A DNA stretch of 64,000 nt, taken from positions 1 through 64,000 of the forward strand of contig NZ_JAMZNK010000027.1 of the NCBI RefSeq assembly GCF_027980145.1, given 5' to 3'. Source of the stretch: Flavobacterium azizsancarii. Its GTDB lineage: Bacteria; Bacteroidota; Bacteroidia; Flavobacteriales; Flavobacteriaceae. The position numbers were made by a program, and so were the translations under genes. The notes below the pieces were generated by a model, which worked only from the letters and a program-made list of their open reading frames with translations, made no database searches and was not told where the DNA came from. Of the stretch, positions 2,419-64,000 are shown piece after piece. The stretch's first letter is position 1; each line of letters starts with the position of its first letter.

Positions 2419-2427
2419 TGTTTATGT

Positions 2428-13872: not shown

Positions 13873-13879
13873 ACGAGTG

Positions 13880-13980
13880 TTTGTTAAGTTGCTAAGGTTC
13901 TAAGTTGTTGATTTGCTGAGTTGCTAAGTTTTTGAGACTGTGACTGAGCACTGAACACTGAGCACTGCGACTGAATACTT
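13880..13980. repeat. Imperfect short tandem repeats between adaptor and pump genes
   Basis: The 114-nt gap inside the metal efflux operon is made of degenerate short repeats: GTTGCTAAG/GTTGCTGAG-type words followed by GACTGAGCACTGA/ACACTGAGCACTG words. Such heptamer-like satellites are common between flavobacterial genes. No ORF is supported. The repeat separates adaptor and pump, which are otherwise tightly packed in such operons. Confidence 0.65.
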
Positions 13981-47669: not shown

Positions 47670-49001
47670 CTAAATACTTATAAGAAAATAGCGCAGCAAA
47701 CCATATAGAAGACTGATTAGTATGAGGTATACCATGTTTAATTTATATCTTATAAGTAAAAACAAAGAGAACAAAACCCATCCCAGTGCCAGCCAATTTA
47801 TATTGGGTAATGAAATCATTTTACCCAAAAATAAAATGCTTTCTCCTAGGTAAAATGCAAGATTAACAATAACCCCAACAACAGAGGCGGTAACGAGTGA
47901 TAGAATAGCCTGAACTGTTTGATTTTTTTGAGATTTTTCAATTAAAGGAGCTCCTGTAAAAATCATAATAAAATTAGGAAGAAATGTAAAATAACTGGCT
48001 GTCAAAAGTCCCAGAGTTCCCATTAAAAGTGAACCGTTAAAATGGTTTAATCCCGCCATAAAGCCAACATACGATAAAACAATGACAAGTGGCCCCGGAG
48101 TAGTTTCAGCCAGGGCAAAACCGTCTACCATCTGGGTTTTTGAGAGCCAGGCCAATTTGCTTGTGACCAAACCGGCAACGTATGGAATTACAGTATACGA
48201 TCCGCCAATTGTTAAAAATGCAGATTTTGTAAAAAGCAGGGAGAGTTTTTGCCAAAATAAGCTATCTGCAAGAAAATAGGTAACTCCTAAAAAAGGAATA
48301 AGCCAAAGGAGCGCAAAAACTGAGAGCTGTTTTATTATTGTTTTTGCAGGTGTTTTATGGGGAGCCGTATTACTATTAACGTAGTATGAATTTTCGTAAT
48401 TGTCGATTTCATTTTTTCTCTTTTTTAAGATCATAAGACCAGGAGATACAAGGCTAATTATAATAGAAAAAAAGATTACGCTGATAATGATCCATGGTGT
48501 TGGAACGTTTAGAAACCACGAACAGATAAACGAGGAAAAAGCGACAAAATAATGTAAAAAACTCAGGAGTGATTTTTGGCTTACTTTCCAGGTAGCAAAT
48601 ATGATAATAGCCAAAACTGCAGGCTTTAATCCATCAAATACTGAAGTTAGTATTGGAGTGTTCCCATAAAGAGCATAAATAATGCTAAGGCATAAGAGGA
48701 TAAAAATAGAAGGCAAAATAAAGAACAAACCAGATATAATACCACCTTTTATTCCGTGAAGTTTCCATCCCAGATAAATGGCCAGCTGATGCGCTTCAGG
48801 TCCCGGCAGGATCATACAGGCATTAAGCGCAGAGAAAAATTTACTGTTGCTTACCCATTTCTTTTTTTCGACAAGAAAATCGTGCATAATTGTTACGTGT
48901 CCTGTTGTACCTCCAAAACTAATCCAGCCTAATATAAACCAAAAACGAAATGCCTCTGAAAATTTAGGTTGCTGAATTTTATTCTCTTTAATTGTATGCA
49001 T
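47670..49001 (-). CDS. chrA: Chromate transporter ChrA, two-domain
   Basis: A 443-aa CHR-family membrane protein with two homologous halves. The N-terminal half has WISFGGTTGHVTIMHDFLVEK and ILPGPEAHQLAIYLGW; the C-terminal half has TIGGSYTVIPYVAG and ETTPGPLVIVLSYVGF. The PGP signatures in both halves mark the long-chain CHR type, which exports chromate in characterised members; other anions are possible. Convergent with the AraC gene, 26 nt away, and without chromate reductase genes nearby. Confidence 0.92.
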   Translation of the reverse strand: MHTIKENKIQQPKFSEAFRFWFILGWISFGGTTGHVTIMHDFLVEKKKWVSNSKFFSALNACMILPGPEAHQLAIYLGWKLHGIKGGIISGLFFILPSIFILLCLSIIYALYGNTPILTSVFDGLKPAVLAIIIFATWKVSQKSLLSFLHYFVAFSSFICSWFLNVPTPWIIISVIFFSIIISLVSPGLMILKKRKNEIDNYENSYYVNSNTAPHKTPAKTIIKQLSVFALLWLIPFLGVTYFLADSLFWQKLSLLFTKSAFLTIGGSYTVIPYVAGLVTSKLAWLSKTQMVDGFALAETTPGPLVIVLSYVGFMAGLNHFNGSLLMGTLGLLTASYFTFLPNFIMIFTGAPLIEKSQKNQTVQAILSLVTASVVGVIVNLAFYLGESILFLGKMISLPNINWLALGWVLFSLFLLIRYKLNMVYLILISLLYGLLRYFLISI

Positions 49002-49685
49002 GAATGATTATCTCTTCTAATTGGGCTTCTTAAGTGACTCTATTATCAGAAGTTGTTTTGTTTTATTAAGTTGGATTATAACTGATTCAGAGTAGGGATT
49101 TCTTAGTTGCTAAATTAAAAAATAGTAGGGGTAAAACCTAAAATGAAACTTATAAAATTTGATTTTTTAATTAAAAAGAAGGAGTGTATTACAGGATTGT
49201 TTCTAAGTTTTTATGTTAGGGTATTAGATGTGTTACACAAAAAAAAAAAGATATAAAAAGATGTAATTGGATATTAAAGCAAATTTGAAAATTCTGCTTT
49301 TCCTTGTCTCTATGTTTGTTCCCATTTTTCTTATTGGGCAATAGTATAGCTGTTTTAATATTTTTGTAGTCCAATTCTTTAGTTGCCAAAAAGTGCTCAA
49401 AAGCATAAAAAAATCCCATTTATTGAGAGGTGGCATTTTTATTACTTATTGGTTAGTCGTATGAATAAGTTTTAAGGTTAGACATGATGCTAATCTGGTA
49501 AAAATAAAAGAAAAAAAGGGTGTGAATTCTAATTAATTATTTCGATTATATAATCCCATTTTTATTTTTATTCTAAATCTAAATTTTATTTAATTGGCGA
49601 TAATAACAGATGTATAGAAGAAGTGTATAAAAAAACATTTATTTTTGTTAGTAAGAATTATACCAAAAAACATTTTAATTTAAGA
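49002..49685. other. AT-rich intergenic region before the AraC cluster
   Basis: 684 nt between divergent chrA and the first AraC paralogue. Small antisense frames at 49216-49436 lack any supporting signal. TATTTTTG at 49640-49647 fits a -7 element for the AraC operon, but no good -33 partner or 25-nt box precedes it. Confidence 0.45.
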
Positions 49686-50669
49686 ATGAAAAAAATTACG
49701 CATCATTACGGAGTAGAATTGGATTGGGTTGAACCATTAACTTTAGAACTTGAAGGAAAGGTTGAAGGCAATTTTATTGTAGTGCCGGATCATATTCATA
49801 CCGGAGACAGATATTTTTTAGGTCTGGGTTCAAGTATCTCGGTTATGTATATAGACGTTGTGTACAATTCAGAAATTCATTTAAGGCAAGAAAACAAAAC
49901 AGATGATTTTATTGGGCTTTATTACAATCTTACAGAAGGAGAAGCTGTTTTATTATCTGATGATGTAGCGAATCCGATTGGGAGATGGAATTACAATTTG
50001 GCAATTTTAGACAGTACTTTATCTTCAGATTATATTGTTAAAGCAGGCAGTAAAACTTTTGCTCTTTGCATTTTTATAAAAAAGGATCTGATAAAAGAAT
50101 ATTTTCAGGATAATCCCTCTCTAAAAGAACATGCTGACGAAATTCTTAACCCTGAACTAAATACTATCGTTAAGTTTACGAGAATGAGTAACGACAGTTA
50201 TAATCTTTTAACGAATTTGAGAAGTCATGAAGTTGGAGGAACAGTTTTTGACTTATATTTAAGAGGAACGGTTCAAAATTTATTAGCGGAGTACATCGAA
50301 AAAATGACTTTTGAAGAAATTGTAATTGATAAGATCAATGAAAATGATTTATCGGTTATTATAAAGTCTCAATCTTATTTAGTAGAAAATCTGAATCAAC
50401 TATTTCCCAGTATCGAATTTCTGTCGCAACAGGCGAATATGTCTGAGTCTAAATATAAAAGTCTGTTTAAAAAAATTACCGGAATGACGCCAAATTCATT
50501 CTTCTTAAACAATAAACTTGTTGAAGCAAAACGGCTTTTGCAAGAGAGACAACTAAATATTGCAGAGGTTTCTGATAGCTTAAGTTTTACGAATAGTTCC
50601 TACTTTGCTGTAAAGTTCAGAGAATTTTTCGGAATGTCACCAAAGGATTTTGTCAAACAACTTGAATAA
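49686..50669 (+). CDS. AraC-type regulator, first of three paralogues
   Basis: A 327-aa protein with an N-terminal beta-rich sensor-like domain and a C-terminal AraC double HTH (about 225-325: IEFLSQQANMSESKYKSLF; LNIAEVSDSLSFTNSSYFAVKFREFFGMSPKDF). The start at 49686 (MKKITHHYGVELDW) aligns with the starts of the two following paralogues; an upstream in-frame Met at 49623 would add 21 residues overlapping a -7 element. It is the most divergent of the three. Its stop overlaps the next start by one base, so the first two are one operon. Likely a regulator of the surface-protein genes downstream. Confidence 0.9.
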   Translation: MKKITHHYGVELDWVEPLTLELEGKVEGNFIVVPDHIHTGDRYFLGLGSSISVMYIDVVYNSEIHLRQENKTDDFIGLYYNLTEGEAVLLSDDVANPIGRWNYNLAILDSTLSSDYIVKAGSKTFALCIFIKKDLIKEYFQDNPSLKEHADEILNPELNTIVKFTRMSNDSYNLLTNLRSHEVGGTVFDLYLRGTVQNLLAEYIEKMTFEEIVIDKINENDLSVIIKSQSYLVENLNQLFPSIEFLSQQANMSESKYKSLFKKITGMTPNSFFLNNKLVEAKRLLQERQLNIAEVSDSLSFTNSSYFAVKFREFFGMSPKDFVKQLE

Positions 50670-51664
50670 TGAAAGAGGTTCGTCATATATATTCTCTCAC
50701 TTCTGAATGGCTCTACGATAATGTAGAACAGCTAGGAGAAGGAGCGGAGGTAATTGACGGAAGATTAACAATAATGCCAGAACTGGCTGAAGGTGGCTTT
50801 TTCTTTACACAAGTTTCACCCGGTCTTTCGGCTGTGCTTTTAGATTTAACTTTTAAGGAACCTATTCAAATCAGAAGACTTCGATCAGATAATGATTTAT
50901 ATATCATACATTATGATTTTAGCGATGAAATAAATCTAATTCATATCGATGGCGTAAAACACAAAATAGGATATAAGGCTAATCTGGGATTAGGAGTTGT
51001 AGATAATGCTATCGAAAATATTTTTCAGCCCGTTGTTGGTGAGCGCGTTTTTGCGTTACGTTTATTGGTGACTAAAGAGTTATTAAGTGTTTCGATCAAC
51101 AATAAAAACAAAAAAAGCGATAATAAACGTAAAATTAAAAGTGATAAAAATACACTGTTTTTTTATGATCATATCGATAGTAAAAGCAAGCTCATAATGC
51201 ACGCTATAAAAAACAAATCTTTTTTAGATCCTGCGTTCGAAATTTATTTACAGGGAGTTAGTTTGAGATTGTTGGCGAAGTTTATTGATCGATATTCTAA
51301 TCTTGCTCAAATGCTGCATCATATACCTGAAAAAGAAGTTACAGCTTTAGACCTGACAAAGAATTTTATGCTGGGCAATTTGCTTCACGGATTTCCCGGA
51401 GTAGATATGTTGGCAGAGATGTCAGGAATGTCAGTTACAAAATATAAGTATTTATTTAGAAAAATTTTTACCACCACACCCAACCATTTTTTTACAAGAC
51501 AAAAAATGATTTTGGCCAATGAGTTTCTTAAAAGCGAAAATTTTAATGATATATCAGAGATTGCCCATAAATTAAATTATGTCAAAGTAAGCAAGTTCTC
51601 TTTTACATATTCCCGGCAATTTGGGAGAAAACCTGCGGATGATTTTTTAAAATCAGAATTTTAA
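50669..51664 (+). CDS. AraC-type regulator, second of three paralogues
   Basis: A 331-aa protein. N-terminal domain: IYSLTSEWLYDNVEQLGEG, GGFFFTQVSPGLSAVLLDLT, LYIIHYDFSDEINLIHIDG. C-terminal AraC domain: about 235-331 (VDMLAEMSGMSVTKYKYLFRKI; FNDISEIAHKLNYVKVSKF). It is very similar to the third paralogue, including long nearly identical nucleotide stretches (for example 51140-51300 against 52640-52800), so those two arose by recent tandem duplication. It is translationally coupled to the first paralogue. No 25-nt box precedes this operon, so it could be the activator of genes that carry the box. Confidence 0.92.
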   Translation: MKEVRHIYSLTSEWLYDNVEQLGEGAEVIDGRLTIMPELAEGGFFFTQVSPGLSAVLLDLTFKEPIQIRRLRSDNDLYIIHYDFSDEINLIHIDGVKHKIGYKANLGLGVVDNAIENIFQPVVGERVFALRLLVTKELLSVSINNKNKKSDNKRKIKSDKNTLFFYDHIDSKSKLIMHAIKNKSFLDPAFEIYLQGVSLRLLAKFIDRYSNLAQMLHHIPEKEVTALDLTKNFMLGNLLHGFPGVDMLAEMSGMSVTKYKYLFRKIFTTTPNHFFTRQKMILANEFLKSENFNDISEIAHKLNYVKVSKFSFTYSRQFGRKPADDFLKSEF

Positions 51665-52164
51665 TATTGCATATAAGTTTTTATTTGTATCAAGTCCTTT
51701 TCAATTCATTAAAGGATATTTCGGCTGTTAATCTAAACAGCAAACACTTCACATTTATTTTTACAGTAGTCTTAAAAATGTCTTATTATGATATTTATAT
51801 GACGTATTCAGGCTAAAAGTTTACTTCTATTTGCATCATAATTATTTAGTAAGATTAAGGTCGAAAATACCTTCTGAAAATTTATTTACAATTGAGTTAT
51901 AGAATGTTTTTATTGAAATTATTATGTTCCGGTAATTTTGGTAAGATTTTAAATTTGAATATGATTTTATGTTATTTCCATCAATAGCAAATCATTTTCA
52001 TACCTCAATTTTCCTTTTTTTCTTCTGGATAATTTACCCATTAAAGCTGTACAATAAACTATTGTCCCGCTTTCTCATACTTTAATTTATTAGCAATAGT
52101 CCTGTTTTTTTATGGGCTGTAAGATTCTTTAAATGTCTTGAGAAATCTTTATTAAACATTTAAA
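51665..52164. other. Long leader of the third AraC gene
   Basis: 500 nt between paralogues 2 and 3. It contains the box A promoter (51779-51833), which predicts a leader of about 325 nt. Close to the start a 9-bp hairpin (TTTAAATGT 52128-52136, ACATTTAAA 52156-52164) abuts the ATG and could hide the ribosome site. No ORF is supported. Confidence 0.5.
51779..51833 (+). promoter_or_regulatory. 25-nt box A plus -7 element, upstream of the third AraC gene
   Basis: Box A (51779-51803) begins TGTCTTAT and ends ATTTATATGAC. Exactly 26 nt later is TTTG (51830-51833; context CTATTTG), the -7 element. It is the first of four identically spaced sites in this locus. The predicted transcript start is near 51839. 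Confidence 0.8.
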
Positions 52165-53160
52165 ATGATGATTGAAATTAACCACAGATACTCTTTATCC
52201 TCAGAATGGCTAAGGGAACTTGCAGGGCAATTTGGAGTAGAATTAATTGATGAAAAATTACTGATTATACCAAAAGAATTTGCCGATGGCGGATTTTTTT
52301 TCACAACAATAACGCCCGGACTTTCGGTTGTGCTTTTAGATATAACATTTAATCAAAATATTCATTTAAGAAGACTTAAATCAGATAATAATTTATTCAT
52401 TATACATTATGATTTTAGCGATGAGATGAATCTGATCTATATTGATGGTGTCAAACACAGTATTGGATATAAAGCCAATCTGGGACTTGGGGTTTTTGAT
52501 AATGCGATCGAAAATGTTTTTCAGCCCGTAATTGGTGAGCGTGTTTTTGCAATGAGGCTAATGGTTACCAAAGATTTATTAAGTACATCGATTGCTAATG
52601 CAGATGAAGAAAACAGTGTTAAACGAAAAATAAAAAGTGACAAAAATACGCTGTTTTTTTACGATCATATCGATAGTAAAAGCAAGTTGATTATGCATGC
52701 GATAAAAAACAAATCATTCTTAGATCCTGCATTCGAAATTTATTTAAAAGGAGTAAGTTTAAGATTGCTTGCAAAGTTTATTGATCGATATTCTAACCTT
52801 ACTCCAATGCTTCATCACATTTCCGAAAAAGAAGTTGAGGCTTTAAATCTGGCTAAGGAATATTTATTGAATAATTTATTTAGTGCATTTCCCGGAGTTG
52901 TGTTTTTGGCCGAAATTGCTGGAATGTCAGTTACAAAGTTTAAATTTTTATTTAAAAAGATGTTTGTTAGTACTCCTAAACACTTTTTTTTGAGAGAAAA
53001 AATGATTTTAGCCAACGAGCTCCTTAAAAGCGAAAATTTTGAAAAAATATCAGATATAGCAAGGGAATTAGGGTATACAAAGACAAGTTTACTTACTATG
53101 GTGTACTTTCAACAGTTTAAAAGAAAACCGTGTGAAGATTTTATAAGCTCAAATTATTGA
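52165..53160 (+). CDS. AraC-type regulator, third paralogue, own box promoter
   Basis: A 331-aa close homologue of the preceding regulator (sensor-like N-terminal domain; YKANLGLGVFDNAIENVF; FFYDHIDSKSKLIMHAIKNK shared with paralogue 2). Its AraC HTH region is more diverged (VVFLAEIAGMSVTKFKFLF; FEKISDIARELGYTKTSLL), so it may bind a different or overlapping site. The gene is separated from paralogue 2 by 500 nt and has its own 25-nt box promoter, which suggests that it is a member of the regulon or is autoregulated. The start could be either of two adjacent ATGs. Confidence 0.92.
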   Translation: MMIEINHRYSLSSEWLRELAGQFGVELIDEKLLIIPKEFADGGFFFTTITPGLSVVLLDITFNQNIHLRRLKSDNNLFIIHYDFSDEMNLIYIDGVKHSIGYKANLGLGVFDNAIENVFQPVIGERVFAMRLMVTKDLLSTSIANADEENSVKRKIKSDKNTLFFYDHIDSKSKLIMHAIKNKSFLDPAFEIYLKGVSLRLLAKFIDRYSNLTPMLHHISEKEVEALNLAKEYLLNNLFSAFPGVVFLAEIAGMSVTKFKFLFKKMFVSTPKHFFLREKMILANELLKSENFEKISDIARELGYTKTSLLTMVYFQQFKRKPCEDFISSNY

Positions 53161-53197
53161 AAATTGAGAAAAACCAATTAAAATCTGAATAATAATG

Positions 53198-53252
53198 TGT
53201 CTTAATATGGTATTTATATGACCTCGATGGATAAAAAAATCACCTTACTTTG
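53198..53252 (+). promoter_or_regulatory. 25-nt box B plus -7 element, no gene directly downstream
   Basis: Box B (53198-53222) starts TGTCTTAATATGG and ends TTATATGAC. TTTG (53249-53252; context TTACTTTG) follows after 26 nt. The next feature is a terminator at 53351, not a gene. Confidence 0.8.
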
Positions 53253-53257
53253 TTATC

Positions 53258-53391
53258 TGTTTAATCGAAATTATAACCTAAACAAGTATTCCTTATTATG
53301 AATTAAAAAGTGTTGCTATTATTGTTCTTGAGATTTTTGGAGAAATCAACAAAACCTAATAACTAAATAAATTTAGCTATTAGGTTTTTTC
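53258..53391 (+). ncRNA. Candidate small RNA, about 130 nt
   Basis: The box B promoter predicts a start near 53258, and a strong hairpin with T6 tail ends transcription near 53391. Only trivial reading frames lie between. Either this is a small regulatory RNA co-regulated with the surface genes, or it is the stump of a deleted gene. No Rfam-type structure is recognised, and its existence rests on the promoter and terminator pair alone. Confidence 0.45.
53351..53390 (+). terminator. Intrinsic terminator
   Basis: Perfect 11-bp arms AAAACCTAATA (53351-53361) and TATTAGGTTTT (53378-53388), followed by more T. It can end both the third AraC transcript and the box B transcript. Confidence 0.88.
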
Positions 53392-53713
53392 TGTTAAGGT
53401 AAAATGATAGAAGTTTAGAGATAAGAATAATACTTTAATTTTTTTGTCAGGTGATTGAAACGACAAGTTTTTTGTTTTTTTGTCTTGTATGTCAATGATT
53501 TGTATAAGTAGCCTATGGTGGTTTTACTGATTTTCTACTGCTAATTGTATTTTTTAGAAAAAAGAAATAGCAAAATATAAAGCCTTCTAATGTGCTTTTC
53601 TTTTTCTGCTAGACATACTATAGGTAATACTTGTTTATAATGTTAAATAATTCACATTTTACAAATGCTGCTTTTCTTTTCGGTTAGCAATTATCTATCA
53701 TAAACTGTAATTA

Positions 53714-53768
53714 TGTCTTAATGTGTTATTTTTTTGACGTTTAGTGGATAGCGGATTAATTTCCTTTG
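53714..53768 (+). promoter_or_regulatory. 25-nt box C plus -7 element, upstream of the collagen-like gene
   Basis: Box C (53714-53738) starts TGTCTTAATGTG and ends TTTTTTTGAC. TTTG (53765-53768) follows after 26 nt. The predicted leader of the collagen-like gene is about 127 nt. Confidence 0.82.
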
Positions 53769-53900
53769 TACCATAAATTATTTATGTTATGCATTAAAGC
53801 TAAGTATGTTATAAATATCTATCATTTCTTTAACGATTTTGAAGGTATTAAGTGCTTTAACATATTGGTTTTGAGAATTAATATTTCATTTTAATAATTA

Positions 53901-56900
53901 ATGGCTAATACTATGCAAATAAGAAATCCTGGAGTTGATGGTACAAATGGTCTTGATGGAAAAGATTTTAAGTATGAAGATTTTACACCAGAACAATTAG
54001 TTGGTTTAACAGGACCACAAGGTCTAACCGGAACTGACGGATCAAATGGAACAAACGGTCTTGATGGAAAAGATTTTAAATATGAAGATTTTACACCAGA
54101 ACAATTAGTTGGATTAACGGGACCACAAGGAATCTCGGGAACAAATGGTCTTGATGGAGCTGTAGGACCTCAAGGAATTGCAGGAACAAATGGTATTGAT
54201 GGAGCTACAGGATCTCAGGGATTACCCGGAGTTGACGGAACAAATGGTATTGATGGAGCTGCAGGACCACAAGGAATCGCAGGAACAGATGGAGCAGTTG
54301 GACCGCAAGGTCTAGCCGGAGTTGACGGATCAAGTGGAACAAACGGTATTGATGGAAAAGATTTTAAGTATGAGGATTTTACACCAGAACAATTAGTTGG
54401 ATTAACTGGACCGCAGGGAATTGCAGGAACAAATGGAGTTGATGGAGCTACAGGACCACAAGGAATTGCAGGAACAAATGGAGTTGATGGAGCTACAGGA
54501 TCTCAGGGATTACCCGGAGTTGACGGAACAAATGGTATTGATGGAGCTGCAGGACCTCAGGGAATTGCAGGAACTGACGGATCAAATGGCGCAAATGGTC
54601 TTGATGGAAAAGATTTTAAATATGAAGATTTTACACCAGAACAATTAGTTGGATTAACGGGACCTCAAGGAATTGCAGGAACAAATGGTATTGATGGAGC
54701 TGCAGGACCACAAGGAATCGCAGGAACAGATGGAGCAGTTGGACCGCAAGGTCTAGCCGGAGTTGACGGATCAAGTGGAACAAACGGTCTTGATGGAAAA
54801 GATTTTAAGTATGAAGATTTTACACCAGAACAATTAGTTGGTTTAACGGGACCACAAGGAATTGCAGGAACAAATGGTATTGATGGAGCAGTTGGACCTC
54901 AGGGAATTGCAGGAACAAATGGTATTGATGGAGCGAGAGGATCTCAGGGATTACCTGGAGTTGACGGAACAAATGGAGTTGATGGAGTTGCAGGACCACA
55001 AGGAATCGCAGGAACAGATGGAGCACAAGGTGTAGCTGGATCAAATGGAACAAACGGTCTTGATGGAAAAGATTTCAAATATGAAGATTTTACACCAGAA
55101 CAATTAGTTGGTTTAACAGGACCACAAGGAATTGCAGGAACAAATGGTATTGATGGAGCGAGAGGATCTCAAGGATTAGCAGGAGTTGACGGAACAAATG
55201 GTATTGATGGAGTTGCAGGACCACAAGGAATCGCAGGAACAGATGGGGCAGTTGGACCACAAGGTCTAGCCGGAGTTGACGGATCAAATGGAACAAACGG
55301 TATTGATGGAAAAGATTTTAAGTATGAAGATTTTACACCAGAACAATTAGTTGGATTAACTGGACCGCAGGGAATTGCAGGAACAAATGGAGTTGATGGA
55401 GCTACAGGATCTCAGGGATTACCTGGAGTTGACGGAACAAATGGTATTGATGGGGCAGTTGGACCTCAAGGAATTGCTGGAACAGATGGAGCAGTTGGAC
55501 CGCAAGGAATTGCAGGAACAAATGGTATTGATGGAGCTGCAGGACCTCAAGGAATTGCAGGAACAGATGGAGCAGTTGGACCACAAGGTCTAGCCGGAAC
55601 TGACGGATCAAATGGTATTGATGGAAAAGATTTTAAATATGAAGATTTTACACCAGAACAATTAGTTGGATTAACTGGACCACAAGGAATTGCAGGAACA
55701 AATGGTATTGATGGGGCAGTTGGACCGCAGGGAATTGCAGGAACAAATGGAGTTGATGGAGCTACAGGATCTCAGGGATTACCTGGAGTTGACGGAACAA
55801 ATGGTATTGATGGGGCAGTTGGACCTCAAGGAATTGCTGGAACAGATGGAGCAGTTGGACCACAAGGTCTAGCCGGAACTGACGGAGTTGCAGGCCCAAA
55901 AGGTGATGTTGGAGCTACCGGAACTCAAGGTCCAATAGGATTGACAGGAGCCGCTGGTCCCAAAGGAGATGTTGGCGCGACAGGATTAGCTGGAACTGCA
56001 GGAGCACAAGGTCCCAAAGGAGATGTTGGCGCGACAGGATTAGCTGGAACTGCAGGAGCTCAAGGTCCCAAAGGAGATGTTGGTGCAACAGGATTACCTG
56101 GAACTGCAGGAGCTCAAGGTCCAATAGGAGATGTTGGCGCAACAGGATTACCTGGAACTACCGGAACTCAAGGTCCAATAGGATTGACAGGAGCCGCTGG
56201 TCCCAAAGGAGATGTTGGTGCGACAGGATTAGCCGGAACTACTGGAACTCAAGGTCCCAAAGGAGATGTTGGTGCTATAGGATTAACTGGTCCGGCAGGA
56301 GCAAAAGGAGACGCTGGTAATTCTGCGCCGGTTTATACAGCCGGAACAGGTATAGTCGTTGACAATACAAATCATGTAATATCAGCTCAAAACACAACAA
56401 ATCTATGGAATGCGAATCAATTACAAGGCAGACCAATAAATACAGCCGCTCCAACTTCTAATCAGGTTTTAGCGTGGAATGGTACAAATTGGTCGCCTGC
56501 AACTATAGCACTTAACGAACCATGGAGGGTAGCCGGAACTATAAATGAAGCCAACGCAAATACTCAAAGTATATATCAAATGGGGAATATCGGTATCGGA
56601 ACTACTGCTGCATCGACCTATAGATTAAATGTTTCTGGTGGTAATCAATTAATCGGAGGATCAGTTACACCAACATTGAATTTTCTTAGCAATGGTACAG
56701 GTAATACAAATGCTAATGCGCAAGGAGCAATCAGTTTTTGGGAAGCTGGAGCAGAAAATACCTGGGGAGGCGGATTGGAATTTAATAGCCCCGCAGCATC
56801 AGGTAATAACAGATTAGATATATATGGAGTAACTGCCGGCGTAAAAAGTACTATTGCAACTTTTGACGTGCAAAGTGGCAGATTAGGAATTGGGACAACC

Positions 56901-57863
56901 ACTCCAGGAAAAGAATTATCTGTAGTAGGAAGTGGTTTGTTTTCGAATACGTTACAAATTGATGGTACAGCCACAGGAGACGGAACCGTAAGAACAGGAT
57001 TGTTTTTTGGACCTGGTACCTCCGGAGAAGGTATAACTTCTAACAGAACAACTTCTGCTAATGGTAATGTAAGCGGATTAGATTTCTGGGCTGGAAATAA
57101 TAAACGTGTGTCTGTACTTAATAATGGTAATGTAGGTATTGGCAGGCTCGATGCAGGTCAAAAATTAGACGTTGCAGGAGTAATTAGAGGAACTGTTATG
57201 CATATTAATAGTGGAAGCATATCAGGAAATTACGGTGGAACAACTGAATTAAACTTTATTCGAAGTGCAGCAAATGACAGATGGGTTATGGGATCATCAC
57301 TTAATGGAAGAGGCAATGATTTTTTCGAACTGGCTCACATAAGTGGTGGAGGTATTTTTACCAATAGAGTCCTTGTTTATAACAGGACTAATAATAGTAT
57401 GGCAATTAATCAGGCAGATACAAATGATTCATATAGATTTTATGTAAACGGCGCTGCGGGCGGAACATCTGCCTGGAATTCCACTTCTGACAGAAGATAT
57501 AAAAAAGATATAACGCCAATTGTAAATGCGTTAGATAAAATCATGAAAATAAATGGAGTTGGTTATAACTGGAGAGCTGATGAATTTAAAGATATGACTT
57601 TTGATAACAAACACCAATTGGGTGTTATTGCTCAGGATATTGAAACAGTTTTACCAGAGGCAGTAACAGTCGATGATAAAGGATATTACTCAGTTTCGTA
57701 TACAACTCTTATCCCTGTACTTGTTGAAGCTGTTAAAGAACAGCAGAATGAAATCTTGCTAAAAGATAAAAAAATGCAGGAATTAGAACAAGTACAAAAG
57801 AATCAGCAAATAGAATTAGAAAATTTAAAAAATGCTGTAAAACAATTATTATCTAAAAAATAA
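53901..57863 (+). CDS. Collagen-like repeat protein with C-terminal endosialidase-chaperone (S74) domain
   Basis: A 1320-aa fibrous protein. Residues about 11-810 are Gly-X-Y triplets, interrupted eight times by a 15-residue module DFKYEDFTPEQLV flanked by Gly, of a kind known from trimeric phage and bacterial fibres. Residues about 870-1190 form a beta-rich head-fibre part (GNIGIGTTAASTYRLNVSGG, RLGIGTTTPGKELSVVG). The C-terminus is an intramolecular chaperone: TSDRRYKKDITPI (Ser-Lys self-cleavage pair near 1195-1202), GVGYNWR, LGVIAQDIETVLPEAV, then a coiled coil (LVEAVKEQQNEILLKDKKMQ). There is no signal peptide: the protein begins MANTMQIRNPG and an in-frame stop lies just upstream. How it is exported, or whether it is, is unclear. 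It has its own box promoter. Confidence 0.9.
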   Translation: MANTMQIRNPGVDGTNGLDGKDFKYEDFTPEQLVGLTGPQGLTGTDGSNGTNGLDGKDFKYEDFTPEQLVGLTGPQGISGTNGLDGAVGPQGIAGTNGIDGATGSQGLPGVDGTNGIDGAAGPQGIAGTDGAVGPQGLAGVDGSSGTNGIDGKDFKYEDFTPEQLVGLTGPQGIAGTNGVDGATGPQGIAGTNGVDGATGSQGLPGVDGTNGIDGAAGPQGIAGTDGSNGANGLDGKDFKYEDFTPEQLVGLTGPQGIAGTNGIDGAAGPQGIAGTDGAVGPQGLAGVDGSSGTNGLDGKDFKYEDFTPEQLVGLTGPQGIAGTNGIDGAVGPQGIAGTNGIDGARGSQGLPGVDGTNGVDGVAGPQGIAGTDGAQGVAGSNGTNGLDGKDFKYEDFTPEQLVGLTGPQGIAGTNGIDGARGSQGLAGVDGTNGIDGVAGPQGIAGTDGAVGPQGLAGVDGSNGTNGIDGKDFKYEDFTPEQLVGLTGPQGIAGTNGVDGATGSQGLPGVDGTNGIDGAVGPQGIAGTDGAVGPQGIAGTNGIDGAAGPQGIAGTDGAVGPQGLAGTDGSNGIDGKDFKYEDFTPEQLVGLTGPQGIAGTNGIDGAVGPQGIAGTNGVDGATGSQGLPGVDGTNGIDGAVGPQGIAGTDGAVGPQGLAGTDGVAGPKGDVGATGTQGPIGLTGAAGPKGDVGATGLAGTAGAQGPKGDVGATGLAGTAGAQGPKGDVGATGLPGTAGAQGPIGDVGATGLPGTTGTQGPIGLTGAAGPKGDVGATGLAGTTGTQGPKGDVGAIGLTGPAGAKGDAGNSAPVYTAGTGIVVDNTNHVISAQNTTNLWNANQLQGRPINTAAPTSNQVLAWNGTNWSPATIALNEPWRVAGTINEANANTQSIYQMGNIGIGTTAASTYRLNVSGGNQLIGGSVTPTLNFLSNGTGNTNANAQGAISFWEAGAENTWGGGLEFNSPAASGNNRLDIYGVTAGVKSTIATFDVQSGRLGIGTTTPGKELSVVGSGLFSNTLQIDGTATGDGTVRTGLFFGPGTSGEGITSNRTTSANGNVSGLDFWAGNNKRVSVLNNGNVGIGRLDAGQKLDVAGVIRGTVMHINSGSISGNYGGTTELNFIRSAANDRWVMGSSLNGRGNDFFELAHISGGGIFTNRVLVYNRTNNSMAINQADTNDSYRFYVNGAAGGTSAWNSTSDRRYKKDITPIVNALDKIMKINGVGYNWRADEFKDMTFDNKHQLGVIAQDIETVLPEAVTVDDKGYYSVSYTTLIPVLVEAVKEQQNEILLKDKKMQELEQVQKNQQIELENLKNAVKQLLSKK
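53930..56310 (+). repeat. Collagen-type coding repeat array
   Basis: Long-range homogenised coding repeats. The eight AAAGATTT-starting modules begin at 53961, 54069, 54357, 54609, 54798, 55068, 55311 and 55626. All intervals (108, 288, 252, 189, 270, 243, 315) are multiples of nine, so every copy stays in register with Gly-X-Y. From about 55890 the array switches to GPKGDVGATG-type repeats. High identity implies frequent slippage or recombination and a risk of assembly error. Confidence 0.92.
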
Positions 57864-57869
57864 AAGGAT

Positions 57870-57908
57870 TTAAGTACAGTCTTTATTAAAAGGCTGTGCT
57901 TAATTTTT
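57870..57908 (+). terminator. Terminator of the collagen-like gene
   Basis: Arms TTAAGTACAGTCTTT and AAAGGCTGTGCTTAA (G-T pairs included; 57870-57884 with about 57889-57903), then TTTTT. Starts 6 nt past the stop codon. Confidence 0.78.
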
Positions 57909-58018
57909 GCGTGTCATTAATAGTGTAAAGTGTTGTTAATCTTGTTTTTAATTTCTGTTTACTTGGTTAATACCAATATCTTTTTTTTTATTTAGATAAT
58001 AAGCACGTGGCAAAAAAA

Positions 58019-58073
58019 TGTCTTAATCTGATGTTTTTTTGACTTATTAAGGACAATGCTTTTTGTCTCTTTG
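58019..58073 (+). promoter_or_regulatory. 25-nt box D plus -7 element, upstream of the type B operon
   Basis: Box D (58019-58043) starts TGTCTTAATCTG and ends TTTTTTTGAC. TTTG (58070-58073) follows after 26 nt. The predicted leader is about 100 nt to ATG 58180. Confidence 0.82.
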
Positions 58074-58179
58074 CAATGTAAATAATGCTATCCAATTAAA
58101 TCTTTCAATGTATTACAATCTTAGATATGCAGACGATGCTATTTATTTAACCTGTATCGATACAGTAAACTGATTTTAT

Positions 58180-59442
58180 ATGAAAAAAAAAAACCACATT
58201 ATAAAAACAACAACAATTTTTTGCTTTCTTTTTTATTGCTCTTTAGCTAATCTACAGGCTCAATTGTTGAATCCGGATCAAATTAAAGTAGCACCCGGAA
58301 CTATAGTTTCGGTATATTTTGATTTTAAAAACACTTCTGGCGGAGAATTTATAAACGACGGTCAGGTACATATTTTTAACCACTGGACTAACGACGGAAA
58401 AGTTTATTTTACGCCTTCTCAACAAGGAACTACTTATTTTACAGGAAACGAAGAACAAATTATTGACGGCGATTTACCTTCACCTGCCGTATATACCCGT
58501 TTAAAAAATGTTGTTTTCAATAATAACTCTGGGGCATCACCTTTTTTATTGGCTACAGATATTTCTGTTTCCGGTAATTCAAATTTTCAAAAAGGAATTA
58601 TTGATGCTGACAGTTATAACGGAAAAGTAATTTTCGAAAGTAATGCTGTACATTCTAATACAAGTAATAATAGCTTTGTTGATGGCAGAGTTACAAAACT
58701 TGGAACAGCAGCTTTTGAATATCCTGTTGGAGATGCCAATTATTATCGTCCTTCTATACATGCAAATTCGGCAGATAATTTAGACAGCTATACTTCACAT
58801 TATTTTTTACAAAATTCAGATCCTGCTTATCCGCATAATAGTAAGCAAGATAATATTCGATTAATAGATGATAAAGAATATTGGGAAATTACTAAAGATA
58901 GCGGACTTACTAAAATTGTTCTTTCTCTTACTTTAAATCCGGAGACTACGCCATCATACATCTACGGAGAAAGTAATGACACACAAATACAAATTGTAAG
59001 ATGGGATCCTGCCACAGCAAAATGGATATCAGAAGGTGGTGTTGCAGATGTGGCACAAACAATGGTTACTGCACAGGTTTCAGGTTATGGCATTTTTACA
59101 GTAGCCAGAGTAGTTAAAATTCCAGAGGAAAAAGATGATTTGATTGTTTATAATGCTGTCTCACCAAACGGAGATGATAAAAATGATTTCTTCATTATAA
59201 AAGGCATTGATAAATACCCTGATAATACTGTTGAAATTTATAATCGATGGGGCGTTTTAGTTTATCAAACCAATGGTTATAACGAAAGTGATCGTGTTTT
59301 TAGAGGATTCTCAGACGGACGTGCAACCGTAAACAGAGGCGCTGGTCTGCCAACAGGAACTTACTTCTATATTCTAAAATATAAAACAGTAACTAACGTC
59401 AAAGAGAGAACAGGCTATCTGCACCTAAATCAAGATAATTAA
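58180..59442 (+). CDS. T9SS type B-sorted surface protein
   Basis: A 420-aa exported protein. A signal (TTTIFCFLFYCSLANLQAQ) is followed by a beta-rich region about 30-310 (GGEFINDGQVHIFNHWTNDGK; repeated strand/turn segments) and a gliding-motility type B C-terminal domain about 325-415 (NAVSPNGDDKNDFFIIKG, VEIYNRWGVLVYQ, GLPTGTYFYILKYK). Type B domains direct export through the type IX system and need a cognate SprF-type partner, which is encoded next. It leads an operon with SprF- and PorE-like genes, driven by the box D promoter. The exact role (adhesin or matrix anchor) is not readable from sequence. Confidence 0.92.
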   Translation: MKKKNHIIKTTTIFCFLFYCSLANLQAQLLNPDQIKVAPGTIVSVYFDFKNTSGGEFINDGQVHIFNHWTNDGKVYFTPSQQGTTYFTGNEEQIIDGDLPSPAVYTRLKNVVFNNNSGASPFLLATDISVSGNSNFQKGIIDADSYNGKVIFESNAVHSNTSNNSFVDGRVTKLGTAAFEYPVGDANYYRPSIHANSADNLDSYTSHYFLQNSDPAYPHNSKQDNIRLIDDKEYWEITKDSGLTKIVLSLTLNPETTPSYIYGESNDTQIQIVRWDPATAKWISEGGVADVAQTMVTAQVSGYGIFTVARVVKIPEEKDDLIVYNAVSPNGDDKNDFFIIKGIDKYPDNTVEIYNRWGVLVYQTNGYNESDRVFRGFSDGRATVNRGAGLPTGTYFYILKYKTVTNVKERTGYLHLNQDN

Positions 59443-59514
59443 AAAACGAATTTATAAGTAGTGTTTTAACAGCTATTAATAAGCACTGCAATTATTCTTC
59501 CAAAAAAAAATAAA

Positions 59515-60453
59515 ATGAATATAAAGAACATAAGATTATTGATCATAATTGTGCTCACCAGTAATTATATGAGCGCACAACAAGACGCACAATATACACA
59601 GTATATGTACAATCCAACTGTTGTAAATCCCGCATATGCCGGTTCTCGTGATGTCATGAGTATTTTTGGGCTCTATCGGACCCAATGGGTTGGATTAGAG
59701 GGAGCGCCAAAAACAGGAACACTTTCCATGCATACCCCAATAGAAAATTCGAGATTAGGCCTTGGTTTCTCGCTGGTTAATGATCGCATAGGCCCATCAG
59801 ACGAAACAAATTTATCGCTGGATATATCCTATACAATTGATGTTTCTTACCAATACAAATTAGCATTTGGAGTAAAAGGAAGTGCGAATCTAATAAACGT
59901 TGATTATACGAAACTAGATATTTATGATCCCTCAGATGCAAGATTTCAGCAGAATATAGATAATAAATTCTCGCCCAATGTAGGGGCAGGAATTTACCTG
60001 TATTCAGACAATACTTATATAGGACTTTCGGCTCCGGCATTATTGCAGACAAAACATTTTGACGGATCCGTGAACTACAATGATTCCGCTACATTTTTTG
60101 CAGGAGAACAAGTTCATTATTACCTAATGGCAGGACATGTTTTTGATTTAGATTATAATTTAAAATTTAAACCATCGGCATTGGTTAAAATGACCGAAGG
60201 AGCTCCGCTGCAGGTTGACTTATCTGCTAATTTTTTATTTAACGAAAAATTTACTGCCGGCGTAGCTTATCGCTGGAGTGCGGCATTAAGCGCATTAGTA
60301 GGCTTTCAGGTAAGCGACGGATTATTTATAGGATATGCCTATGATGCCGAAACAACAAAATTAGCCAATTATAATTCAGGCTCACATGAAATTTTCCTGC
60401 GCTTTGAAATGTTCAAAAAATACAACAAGATTGTTTCTCCAAGATTCTTCTAA
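59515..60453 (+). CDS. PorP/SprF-family outer-membrane protein
   Basis: A 312-aa T9SS-associated barrel protein. Its signal (LLIIIVLTSNYMSAQQ) precedes the family start DAQYTQYMYNPTVVNPAYAGSRD, an almost invariant PorP/SprF marker. Alternating barrel strands run to the C-terminus (SHEIFLRFEMFKKYNKIVSPRFF). SprF proteins work with a neighbouring type B-sorted substrate, here the preceding gene. It lies 72 nt downstream of that gene and 13 nt before the PorE-like gene. Confidence 0.95.
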   Translation: MNIKNIRLLIIIVLTSNYMSAQQDAQYTQYMYNPTVVNPAYAGSRDVMSIFGLYRTQWVGLEGAPKTGTLSMHTPIENSRLGLGFSLVNDRIGPSDETNLSLDISYTIDVSYQYKLAFGVKGSANLINVDYTKLDIYDPSDARFQQNIDNKFSPNVGAGIYLYSDNTYIGLSAPALLQTKHFDGSVNYNDSATFFAGEQVHYYLMAGHVFDLDYNLKFKPSALVKMTEGAPLQVDLSANFLFNEKFTAGVAYRWSAALSALVGFQVSDGLFIGYAYDAETTKLANYNSGSHEIFLRFEMFKKYNKIVSPRFF

Positions 60454-60466
60454 ACAGATATTTAAT

Positions 60467-62404
60467 ATGAAATCAAAAATACTATTGAGTGCCTTAATTT
60501 TAGTCGTTGGATTAGAAAGTTATGCTCAAAATAACAAAATTAAGAAAGCAGAAAAGCAATATGAACAACTCGCTTATATTGATGCTATAAAAATTTACGA
60601 AAACGTAGCGGATAAAGGATATAAATCAGTTGATTTGTTCCGGAAATTAGGAAATGCCTATTATTTTAATGGCCAGTTACAACAGGCAAACAAATGGTAT
60701 ACAGAACTTTTTTTGCTCGATCAAACCCTTGATCCCGAGTATTATTACCGTTATTCGCAAACCCTTAAATCAGTAGGCGATTATAATAATGCCAACAAAA
60801 TACTGGATGCCTTTAATACATTAAATGGCAATGATTCAAGAGCGAAATTGTATGAATCAAACAAAGATTATTATGCTGAAATCAAAGAAAATTCAGGACG
60901 TTATGTCATAGAAAATATCGATATAAATTCTGAATTATCAGATTACGGAACTTCGTTTTTAGGAGATAACATTGTATTCGCAAGTACCCGCGAACAAAGG
61001 GGAATTTCAAAAAACATACAAAAATGGACCAATCAGGCTTTTTCTACTTTGTATACAGCAAGAGTAAATGAAAATGGCACTTTAGATAAAGTACAGAATT
61101 TTAAGAATATTGTTGATTCTAAATTTAATGAAGCTACTCCTGTTTTTACCAAAGATGGACAAACAATGTATTTTACCCGTAACAATTATAATGATGGAAA
61201 AAAGGGAAAAGATGCACAAGGAACCACTTTACTAAAGCTGTACAAAGCAACTTTTGAGAATGGAAGATGGTCGAATGTAAAAGAACTTCCTTTTAATAGT
61301 GACTTATACAGTACAGCACATCCTGCATTAAGTCCTGATGAAAAAACACTATATTTTGCTTCTAACAGACCCGGAACCCTGGGAGAATCTGATATTTTTA
61401 AAGTAGCCATTTACAACAATGACCTTTATGGAACACTTGAAAATCTGGGAAACACAATCAATACAGAAGGCAAGGAAACTTTTCCGTTTGTATCTGCCCA
61501 AAATGAGCTCTATTTTTCCTCAAACGGACACCCGGGATTAGGAGGTTTAGACGTTTTTGTAAGTAAAATCAATTCAAACGGAAGTTTTGAAAAAGTTTCT
61601 AATGTAGGAACTCCAATAAACGGACCAATGGATGATTTTGCTTTCGTAATAAACACCACTGCCAATACAGGATATTTCTCTTCTAATCGTGATGGAGGAA
61701 AAGGCTTTGATGACATCTACCGATTTACTGAAACCAGAAAATTGTCTTGTGAACAATTAATTTCAGGAACAGTTACAGACAAAAAAAAACAATCTCTTCT
61801 GGCTGGAGCCAAAGTAATAATACTCGATGAACATATGAATGTTGTTAAAGAACTTTCTACTGATGACAAAGGAAGTTTTAGTTATGACAGTGCAGAATGT
61901 GGAAAAGTATATTACATACGAGTACTGAAAGAAGAATATCTGACCGCCGAAAAAAAGTTGGCATTACCAGTCAAAAAAGAAAAAACAGAGGTAAATATTG
62001 CTTTAGAAAAGAATGTCGAAAAAATTACAGTCGGAACAGATTTAGCCAAAATATTTGCAATCGAGATGATTTATTTTGATTTGGATAAATCAAATATTCG
62101 TCCTGATGCCGCCTTAGATATTACCAAAGTTGTAGAGGTAATGAAACAATATCCTACCATGAAAGTTGAGGTTGCATCGCACACTGATAGTCGTGCCTCT
62201 AAATCGTACAATCTTATACTATCGCAAAAAAGAGCACAATCTACCTTAGATTTTATGGTAAAATCCGGAATTGACAAAAGTAGATTAGTTGCTAAAGGAT
62301 ATGGAGAAGCCCATTTAGTAAATAAATGTGCTGATGGTGTAGAATGTTCTGAAGAAGAGCACCAACAAAACAGAAGAAGCCAGTTTGTTATTACAGCAAT
62401 GTAA
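60467..62404 (+). CDS. PorE-like OmpA-family protein (TPR, beta-propeller, OmpA)
   Basis: A 645-aa envelope protein typical of SprF/PorP operons. A signal (LLSALILVVGLESYAQ) is followed by TPR-like helices (about 25-140), WD40/PD40 beta-propeller repeats (about 150-450: FTKDGQTMYFTRNNYNDG, LSPDEKTLYFASNRPG, GGLDVFVSKI), a carboxypeptidase-regulatory-like domain (about 455-530) and a C-terminal OmpA peptidoglycan-binding domain (IYFDLDKSNIRPDAALDI, VASHTDSRASKSYNLILSQKRAQ, NRRSQFVITAM). ATG 60467 gives the signal peptide; an upstream in-frame Met at 60386 overlaps the previous gene by 68 nt and is not used here. Likely anchors the SprF-linked complex to the wall. Confidence 0.94.
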   Translation: MKSKILLSALILVVGLESYAQNNKIKKAEKQYEQLAYIDAIKIYENVADKGYKSVDLFRKLGNAYYFNGQLQQANKWYTELFLLDQTLDPEYYYRYSQTLKSVGDYNNANKILDAFNTLNGNDSRAKLYESNKDYYAEIKENSGRYVIENIDINSELSDYGTSFLGDNIVFASTREQRGISKNIQKWTNQAFSTLYTARVNENGTLDKVQNFKNIVDSKFNEATPVFTKDGQTMYFTRNNYNDGKKGKDAQGTTLLKLYKATFENGRWSNVKELPFNSDLYSTAHPALSPDEKTLYFASNRPGTLGESDIFKVAIYNNDLYGTLENLGNTINTEGKETFPFVSAQNELYFSSNGHPGLGGLDVFVSKINSNGSFEKVSNVGTPINGPMDDFAFVINTTANTGYFSSNRDGGKGFDDIYRFTETRKLSCEQLISGTVTDKKKQSLLAGAKVIILDEHMNVVKELSTDDKGSFSYDSAECGKVYYIRVLKEEYLTAEKKLALPVKKEKTEVNIALEKNVEKITVGTDLAKIFAIEMIYFDLDKSNIRPDAALDITKVVEVMKQYPTMKVEVASHTDSRASKSYNLILSQKRAQSTLDFMVKSGIDKSRLVAKGYGEAHLVNKCADGVECSEEEHQQNRRSQFVITAM

Positions 62405-62450
62405 TCTGGAAATAAATTTATCAGAAGTCATTTTATTGGTAAACAATAAA

Positions 62451-62485
62451 GCTCATCCTTTTAGGATTGGGGAAAAAGGATGAGC
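62451..62485 (+). terminator. Hairpin after the type B operon, possible terminator
   Basis: 12-bp arms GCTCATCCTTTT (62451-62462) and AAAAGGATGAGC (62474-62485) with an 11-nt loop. No T-run follows, so termination may be weak or the hairpin may act as an mRNA 3' stabiliser. Confidence 0.5.
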
Positions 62486-62515
62486 AGGCTTCTCTTGAAT
62501 AAAAATGTGAATTAG

Positions 62516-62869
62516 ATGATTATGAAAAAGGGAAAAGCGCTTGTATACGACAGTCAGCACTGTTTTTCAAGATTTTTGAAGTACGAGTTTAAAAAAGATC
62601 TGGCATTTGATGCCTACAAAAATTTTAAAAAATTCGATAATGTAATTGACCACTATACAATTATGTTGTTTGTCATTAATTCAGACAAGGAATTATACGA
62701 TCTGCTACGGATTTATAAAAGAGGCGTGCCCTTGATTGTCTGCACATTTGATAAAGAGATAAAAACAAAACTGGAAATCATAGAAGATATTCTGTTACTG
62801 GATCTTTCCAAAGTAAAATCAGAAATGAGATCACAGTTAAAGTTCTTTATAAATGTTACTTCTAAGTAA
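62516..62869 (+). CDS. Small cytoplasmic protein, possible degenerate receiver-like fold
   Basis: A 117-aa protein without signal peptide. The order beta (KALVYDSQH) - helix (FSRFLKYEFKKDLAF) - helix - beta (YTIMLFVINSD) - helix (KELYDLLRIYKRG) - beta (VPLIVCTF) - helix - beta (DILLLDLSKV) - helix resembles a receiver domain. The phospho-Asp position and acidic pair are not evident, and the Asp in VYDSQ is the only pocket-like residue. Family not recognised. Start may be ATG 62516 or 62522. It lies between two T9SS-related genes, 112 nt after the PorE-like gene. Confidence 0.6.
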   Translation: MIMKKGKALVYDSQHCFSRFLKYEFKKDLAFDAYKNFKKFDNVIDHYTIMLFVINSDKELYDLLRIYKRGVPLIVCTFDKEIKTKLEIIEDILLLDLSKVKSEMRSQLKFFINVTSK

Positions 62870-63000
62870 TAAAAAAATCAAGAATTAGAACATCCCCGGA
62901 CATAATTCTTTGTTGCAAAAAATTTCCGTTAATGAATTTGTAGTTGGAAGTAAAGATGTCCCAAGCAATCCTATTTACCAAAAACAAATAAATCTAAATT

Positions 63001-64000
63001 ATGAAAAATATAAAATTACTATTACTTTTTTTTGTCTTCCTACCCTTAACAGCAATCGCACAAGGGCTCGATTTTACCACAGTAACCACGCCTGTGTTTT
63101 GTGTAAATGATGGTTCGATTACCGTAACGGCTACTAATACAACAGGACGGGTACAATATGAACTGGTAAATTATAAGGCAACAAAAAGATCCGTAATAGG
63201 CGTTCCTCAGGATGACCCTGTTTTTCTAAACTTAGCTCCGGGTACTTATACCGTTGGAGTATATGATGATAATAATGCAGCAATCCCAGTCACAAAAGAA
63301 GTTATAGTACCAGATTACGGATCCGGAAGTACATTAACCATAAGCAGTATTTATTCTAATCAATTGGCGTATTGTGCTACTGATACAGATCCCGGTTCAA
63401 GATTAACAGTTGTTCCCAATGGAGGTAGTACACCTTATACCATAACAGTATTGGATACTAATGATGTTGTCGTGCGAGAAGAAAGCTCATATAGTAGTTA
63501 TAGTTTTCAGGCAATGTCTCCGGGTACCTATAAAATAAGAGTAAAAGACAATTGCGGAACTGTTGTAAACAGTAATAGCCCTCATGTTATAGCAAGAAAT
63601 ATAGTATATAATTTTACAGTTTCTACACCTATGTATTGGTATTGGGACAATAATGTTAAAGTCACTCATAGCGGTGCAGGAACCATCTGTGATCCTGTTA
63701 CAGATGCTTATTATGATTTTAGCTATTCGGGAGGAATTCCAGTCATTAAGGGTAATGATGCATTTCCGATATCTCAGGCGCCGGGAATAACCAGAATGTA
63801 TGCAGTAGAATATGATGGTGTCAAAACACCTTATATGACATATAGCGAGCTTCAGGCCTATAAACAACCTTTGCCATTAGATATAAATACATGGAAACCA
63901 ATGACTTTATGGGTTTCAATTTGTGGAGTTGAAAAGTCTACTATTTATGATTTTCCTTATCGAAAAAATGAATTTTTACCAAAACTTATTGCAAATGCAG
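63001..64000 (+). CDS. Large secreted adhesin-like protein, 3' end outside the window
   Basis: The frame is open from ATG 63001 to the last base (333 codons visible). A signal peptide (MKNIKLLLLFFVFLPLTAIA) precedes Ig-like beta modules with repeating phrases such as CVNDGSITVTATNTTG, NLAPGTYTVGVYDDN, NGGSTPYTITVLDTND and MSPGTYKIRVKDNCGT. These are typical of large T9SS-exported, type B-sorted cell-surface proteins in gliding flavobacteria, but the C-terminal sorting domain lies beyond the edge, so that is inference. The gene continues the surface-protein cluster. No 25-nt box precedes it within the 131-nt gap. Confidence 0.85.
   Translation, partial: MKNIKLLLLFFVFLPLTAIAQGLDFTTVTTPVFCVNDGSITVTATNTTGRVQYELVNYKATKRSVIGVPQDDPVFLNLAPGTYTVGVYDDNNAAIPVTKEVIVPDYGSGSTLTISSIYSNQLAYCATDTDPGSRLTVVPNGGSTPYTITVLDTNDVVVREESSYSSYSFQAMSPGTYKIRVKDNCGTVVNSNSPHVIARNIVYNFTVSTPMYWYWDNNVKVTHSGAGTICDPVTDAYYDFSYSGGIPVIKGNDAFPISQAPGITRMYAVEYDGVKTPYMTYSELQAYKQPLPLDINTWKPMTLWVSICGVEKSTIYDFPYRKNEFLPKLIANA

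Follow-up and report, generated by a model that had tools for sequence, protein, structure and literature searches.

The window analysed here is a stretch of 64,000 nucleotides from Flavobacterium azizsancarii (positions 1 to 64,000 of contig NZ_JAMZNK010000027.1), and our subject is a set of four candidate operators within it, which stand upstream of a gene for an AraC-type regulator, a putative short RNA, a gene for a collagen-like protein, and an operon encoding a protein with a type B sorting domain of the type IX secretion system (T9SS), a PorP/SprF-family protein, and an OmpA-family protein. An earlier note on this DNA had described four 25-nt boxes, at 51779, 53198, 53714, and 58019, and all four agree with the consensus proposed there without a mismatch. 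With up to three mismatches allowed, the consensus is matched four times in the window, compared with a mean of 0.02 in 100 shuffled sequences, and at six places in the whole genome (5.84 Mb), four of which are the window boxes. In every case a TTTG starts exactly 26 nt past the GAC that ends the box, and the TG steps at box positions 1, 11, and 22 are present as described. In three intergenic stretches nearby, TTTG has a frequency of 0.0116 per base, so that the probability of finding four at one common offset is about one in a million. The boxes are all intergenic, lie on one strand, and face genes. Of 86 inverted repeats found, the longest 25 were listed, and no box forms an arm of these. 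Besides the four operators, the window contains no site above our weak threshold.

The operators are conserved to different degrees in related species. Orthologues of operator 1 lie between AraC2 and AraC3 in F. bizetiae, F. frigidimaris, F. plurextorum, F. branchiicola, F. hydatis, and Flavobacterium sp. YO12, and operator 4 has orthologues at L029 1635 and L045 18772. The collagen-like gene of F. branchiicola is likewise preceded by a site (L045 12123), as in operator 3. The counterpart of operator 2 is weak in F. bizetiae, where it keeps the 26-nt gap, is box-like and without TTTG in F. frigidimaris, and is deleted in F. plurextorum.

Repeat structure and distance to the promoter

The 25-nt box is not the unit of the element. 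In 25 aligned sites from the window and its relatives, we find a direct repeat of two unequal halves with a period of 21 bp, TGTCTTAWTCTG / TGACGTATTNNGG; the box is its first part, while the start of the supposed spacer is the putative second half-site. Apart from those of the window and of one further relative, the sites come from 13 loci, all from Flavobacterium, at which one scan of the named genome collection found AraC2/AraC3 relatives encoded. The spacers, described before as not conserved, read GTATTNNGGCT after the GAC, and positions 42-44 and 48-49 are conserved as well. The order of the conserved unit is an A-rich start, TGTCTTAWTCTGNTRTTTWTW, TGACGTATTNNGGCT, some conserved positions before the -7 region, and TTTG, with the 26-nt gap kept in 23 of the 25 sites (the exceptions are L050 and L053). 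At an offset of 21 bp, the second part is similar to the first (p=0.0015 for this offset taken by itself). We also examined 44 sites from 38 other loci, picked by their first half alone; their similarity to TGTCTTATT has a single sharp maximum at +21, with 5.3 of 9 letters against 2.8 in the reversed-sequence control. Exact repetition of the nine letters is found in one site in two relatives (L035 4348, L036 5110). The half-sites are thus two direct repeats about two helical turns apart, a layout characteristic of AraC-type DNA-binding domains.

The proposed fit to the -7 element stood in part. The TTTG is at its place in 23 of the 25 aligned sites, but the TA of the housekeeping Bacteroidota -7 element (TAnnTTTG) is absent, the second position being C or T in all 25, so that these promoters do not have the housekeeping sequence. 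The form TYnnTTTG would fit a weakened, activator-dependent -7 element. Because the accessible text of PMC9723704 places the -7 box at -12 to -5, the half-sites would extend from about -59 to -48 and from -38 to -27, given a transcription start 5 nt past the TTTG. The downstream half-site would then lie over the -33 region, with constant spacing to the -7 element, as in class II promoters.

A sequence-only model built from the 25 sites, which include the four window operators as training members, was used to scan the organism's own genome. Its best five matches fall on a single contig, in a stretch of about 18 kb; the idea of a local regulon therefore holds, except that the regulon extends past the window. 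The fifth, untrained operator (C87:69979-70041, also L039:7983; E=1.9e-7) lies 6 kb beyond, keeps the 26-nt gap, and precedes a 690-aa PF10136 gene. Weak sites with a 26-nt gap precede genes of like size in F. frigidimaris (L043 12153) and in genome G187 (L124 5004). Two weaker matches occur elsewhere in the 5.84 Mb, C44:114968 (E 1.3e-4, TTTG at 25) and C75:52894 (E 0.005, TTTG at 36), followed by a tail from E=0.03. With four sites, a fifth 6 kb on, and two weaker ones elsewhere, the predicted regulon is essentially local. The features of the window are compiled in Table 1.

Table 1. Coordinates of operators, promoter elements, and genes in the window. Training members belong to the 25 sites from which the model was built.
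Feature	Coordinates	Strand	Remarks
AraC1	49686..50669	+	HTH_18; open reading frame opens at GTG 49623, conserved start ATG 49686 by alignment
AraC2	50669..51664	+	HTH_18; start overlaps AraC1 stop; tandem pair with AraC1
Operator 1	51779..51814	+	upstream of AraC3; box 51779-51803 plus putative second half-site; 59.6 bits, E 1.6e-15; training member
TTTG, -7 region of operator 1	51830..51833	+	probable transcription start ~51838 (placing from the accessible text of PMC9723704)
AraC3	52165..53160	+	behind operator 1; duplicate of AraC2
Operator 2	53198..53233	+	upstream of RNA unit; putative second half-site degenerate (TGACCTCGATGG); 41.4 bits; training member
TTTG of operator 2	53249..53252	+	
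Putative short RNA	53257..53392	+	terminator hairpin at end; both ends predicted
Operator 3	53714..53749	+	upstream of collagen-like gene; 50.7 bits; training member
TTTG of operator 3	53765..53768	+	
Collagen-like protein	53901..57863	+	PF01391, PF13884; C-terminal S74 (endosialidase-chaperone type) domain
Operator 4	58019..58054	+	upstream of type B/SprF/OmpA operon; 54.2 bits; training member
TTTG of operator 4	58070..58073	+	
T9SS type B sorting domain (CHU_C) protein	58180..59442	+	PF13585, TIGR04131
PorP/SprF-family protein	59515..60453	+	PF11751, TIGR03519
OmpA-family protein	60386..62404	+	relative of CHU_0125 and PorE models, scoring under both curated cut-offs

The distance between operator and TTTG was examined further in the 38 other loci, 26 of them fetched by AraC homology and 12 by model match, by means of a weight-matrix search. 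The search gave 62 distinct sites above the weak threshold, which four reversed-sequence sites also exceed; the TTTG stands at 36 nt in 26 sites, at 37 nt in 7, and at 26 nt in 4, while among 226 weaker control sites it stands at 36 nt in one. The 26 loci fetched by AraC homology contain 28 sites above the highest control score, with the TTTG at 36 nt in 12 (p about 1e-16), at 37 in 2, and at 26 in 2. In these loci, three type B relatives have a site 234-257 bp upstream, two SprF relatives have one at 122-144 bp, and genes of 177-212 aa follow a site at distances of 91-321 bp; the two of these genes that were tested are both YcxB-like (L134, and L137, tested as L037). Compared with most other sites of the genus, the operator of the window clade thus stands nearer to the promoter by one turn of the helix, and two distances that differ by one turn would be allowed for an activator that must keep its helix face. 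In conclusion, the AraC-type class II operator suggested before is well supported by sequence, but its unit is the 21-bp direct repeat, and similar operators elsewhere in the genus mostly lie one helical turn further out.

Several sites of unusual arrangement were also seen. Paired operators about 100-145 bp apart precede genes of 178-181 aa at L134 3519/3664, L138 2687/2789, L140 922/1046, and L142 10016/10135; one of these genes was tested and is YcxB-like. Weak minus-strand sites, both with the TTTG at 36, lie just behind AraC3 at L138:7860 and L139:7179 and point into its 3' end; they could possibly drive an antisense or short RNA. In F. plurextorum a weaker operator (L044:11201) precedes a gene for a 199-aa PAS protein (11395-11994) without counterpart at the corresponding place of the window, and no remnant of such a gene was seen by tblastn in 49001-64000.

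Regulators, gene neighbourhoods, and the putative short RNA

The AraC DNA-binding domain (HTH_18) is found in all three AraC proteins, in AraC3 exactly at the cut-off. The proteins have 331-348 aa, and Pfam shows AraC-type domains only. AraC2 and AraC3 are 69% identical, AraC1 and AraC3 25%, and a tree of 22 rows indicates one AraC2/AraC3 duplication before the split of this clade (support 97/95, 100/98, and 99/97). The predicted structure of AraC1 (mean predicted local distance difference test score 75.8) has a strand-rich N-terminal domain, with cupins among its Foldseek matches, and a domain with two helix-turn-helix motifs; its best full-length Foldseek matches are AraC-family regulators, with a low template-modelling score. 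The model obtained for AraC3 was too poor and was discarded.

Of 40 loci that encode an AraC2/3 relative, 37 have an AraC1 relative immediately upstream of one, on the same strand; L046 is frame-broken, and L114 and L117 have no AraC1 relative. The broken gene of L046 (Flavobacterium sp. YO12, 2010-3004) is AraC2, which is divided between two frames; AraC1 and AraC3 have open frames there. AraC-type regulators do adjoin the operators, then, but rather than three equivalent genes they are better seen as a conserved pair, AraC1 and AraC2, plus a duplicate, AraC3, behind an operator. L048, L049, and L050 each have just two araC genes, and there the site precedes the pair itself; together with the site before AraC3 in the window, this suggests self-activation. 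A further AraC gene (L039:10363-11394) lies beside a gene for a TonB-dependent outer-membrane protein (11488-13887) and does not match AraC1-3 by BLAST at 1e-6.

A type B, SprF, or OmpA relative is found within 6 kb of the AraC2/3 relative in 22 of the 40 loci, a frequency with a probability of 2e-12 even at an assumed 10% chance; the organism's own genome has 12 SprF genes. Pectinases occur at some other loci (L138, L139, L144). At one locus that was examined, a YcxB-like protein is encoded as well as a histidine kinase and a sigma-54 response regulator. As for the collagen-like protein of the window, its repeats begin almost at once and no signal peptide is evident by eye, so that the label of surface protein is not secured for this product.

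No gene follows the second box. Instead, a block of about 100 nt (53295-53395) with a terminator hairpin at its end is conserved in F. bizetiae (91% identity) and F. plurextorum (88%); with up to three mismatches, it is present in 2 of 199 sampled genomes of the genus. The whole short RNA folds no better than shuffled sequences (z -1.2), and a search of Rfam over 49000-64000 gave one sub-threshold match, located elsewhere. A small open reading frame in this unit was rejected, being without start codon and, by eye, shifted in F. plurextorum. Pairing between the RNA and the AraC3 leader reaches z -2.8 for the window pair, -3.6 in F. bizetiae, and -3.4 in F. plurextorum. However, the leader ranks 2nd, not first, of 52 mechanically listed open reading frame starts, the AraC3 leader of F. 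frigidimaris pairs equally well, though no matching RNA block was found there, and by eye the leader and the RNA, whose hairpin resembles the leader, are alike and hairpin-prone. The pairing is therefore suggestive, and we treat it as a lead only.

Proposed mechanism and alternatives

We consider it probable that the four elements are class II-type operator-promoters read by the co-encoded AraC1 and AraC2, with AraC3 itself among the targets. This reading is based on the observed sequence and spacing of the sites, their conservation, their local confinement, and their recurrence at loci with AraC pairs, from which we infer binding, activation, transcript starts, and the roles of the three AraC proteins. 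Two adjacent AraC monomers would occupy direct half-sites 21 bp apart, both on the same helix face. Because the downstream half-site would replace the -33 element and the -7 element (TYnnTTTG) is weak, RNA polymerase would depend on the bound activator, which would be the AraC1 and AraC2 pair. AraC3, switched on by the same operator, would add positive feedback, and the output would consist of AraC3, the short RNA, the collagen-like protein, the type B/SprF/OmpA operon, and the PF10136 gene past the window.

Several results weigh against this assignment. Half of the loci selected by AraC homology (13/26) have no site above the control maximum, L051 and L054 have the AraC pair and T9SS genes without a site, and no operator stands before AraC1 in the window. 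The 21-bp repeat in the 25 aligned sites reaches only p=0.057 once any offset is allowed, for which reason it was tested in the sites elsewhere described above. In all sampled genomes, with the three that contain training sites omitted, sites are present in 7 of 19 with the AraC family and in 6 of 177 without it, and so occur also where there is no AraC-family match at E 1e-30; among genomes of at least 4.5 Mb the corresponding numbers, 7/17 and 4/24, do not differ significantly (p=0.15). Since sites are missing at some AraC loci and the association is not significant in large genomes, operators of this shape probably serve more AraC proteins than the pair.

The same facts bear on the most serious alternative, in which another regulator encoded elsewhere, a different AraC protein or a response regulator, reads the operator and the neighbouring AraC genes are co-targets or bystanders. 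The similar sites in the 6 genomes without AraC2/3 match, the two weaker sites elsewhere in the organism's own genome, and the position of AraC1 without an operator would all agree with it, but the local confinement of the best five sites, the tandem AraC genes at the loci, and the 28 sites in loci for which AraC homology was the sole criterion would not, and we judge it unlikely. The boxes could also be upstream parts of a promoter for an alternative sigma factor that needs no activator. According to the accessible text of PMC9723704, other sigma motifs exist in Flavobacterium and two of them are used by the remFG-sprCDBF operon. The -7 element here, moreover, departs from TAnnTTTG in a fixed manner. 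Conservation nevertheless extends to about -59, with the 21-bp repeat, and sigma contacts do not reach that far; the distance to the TTTG also has two values that differ by ten, a variation not to be expected of a rigid sigma promoter, so that this explanation is quite improbable. That the boxes are functionless, whether as copies of a small repeat or as remnants of gene duplication, as the descent of some sites could be shared through the AraC2/AraC3 duplication, is hardly credible for intergenic sites that all face genes on one strand and recur with the same gap at corresponding places in several species.

An activating AraC1 and AraC2 pair thus being the preferred reading, a bolder version of it can be sketched, which we put forward tentatively and with some doubt. 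AraC1 and an AraC2/3-type partner might form an obligate heterodimer on the unequal repeat (TGTCTTA vs TGACGTA), travelling with adhesin cassettes of Flavobacterium in two geometries one turn apart (26 and 36 nt to the TTTG), and the short RNA might pair with the AraC3 leader in this clade.

If the proposed mechanism is true, a type B/SprF surface cassette of Flavobacterium would have a sequence-defined, testable switch. The recurrence of tandem AraC genes and the inequality of the half-sites raise the question of AraC heterodimers, and the natural contrast between 26-nt and 36-nt promoters could serve as an experiment on helical phasing in a phylum whose promoter is unusual.

Relation to known systems

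In our literature search, mostly without subscription journals, we found no account of this AraC operator or of the two registers, nor of AraC genes paired in tandem beside SprF genes. The nearest relatives in layout are the operators of the hybrid two-component systems with an AraC domain (HTCS) of Bacteroides thetaiotaomicron, which, in the accessible text of PMC3878776, are direct repeats of two sites at an average distance of 21 bp. Both systems share the direct repeat, the 21-bp spacing, a dimer presumed to sit on one helix face, the AraC-type DNA-binding domain, and the phylum; the likeness is one of layout and spacing. By the same source, HTCS are membrane sensors for polysaccharide use, whereas here a tandem pair of about 330 aa adjoins T9SS and surface genes. 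The periplasmic sensor, kinase, and receiver that HTCS fuse to their AraC domain do not appear among the domains that Pfam finds in our proteins.

The AraC protein of E. coli occupies at I1-I2 two direct half-sites that are likewise 21 bp apart, with the downstream one at the upstream element of the promoter. It is a single homodimeric regulator of arabinose genes, whereas two AraC types and unequal half-sites are found here. For transcriptional control of an SprB/SprF adhesin operon, Flavobacterium offers a precedent in remFG-sprCDBF of F. psychrophilum, reported in the accessible text of PMC9723704 to be under sigma-54 and SM5 control; that regulation is based on sigma factors, and AraC does not occur in the main text of that article. 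An AraC activator site made of direct repeats is therefore already known, and what would be new at this locus is the paired regulator, the set of targets, and the two fixed distances to the promoter.

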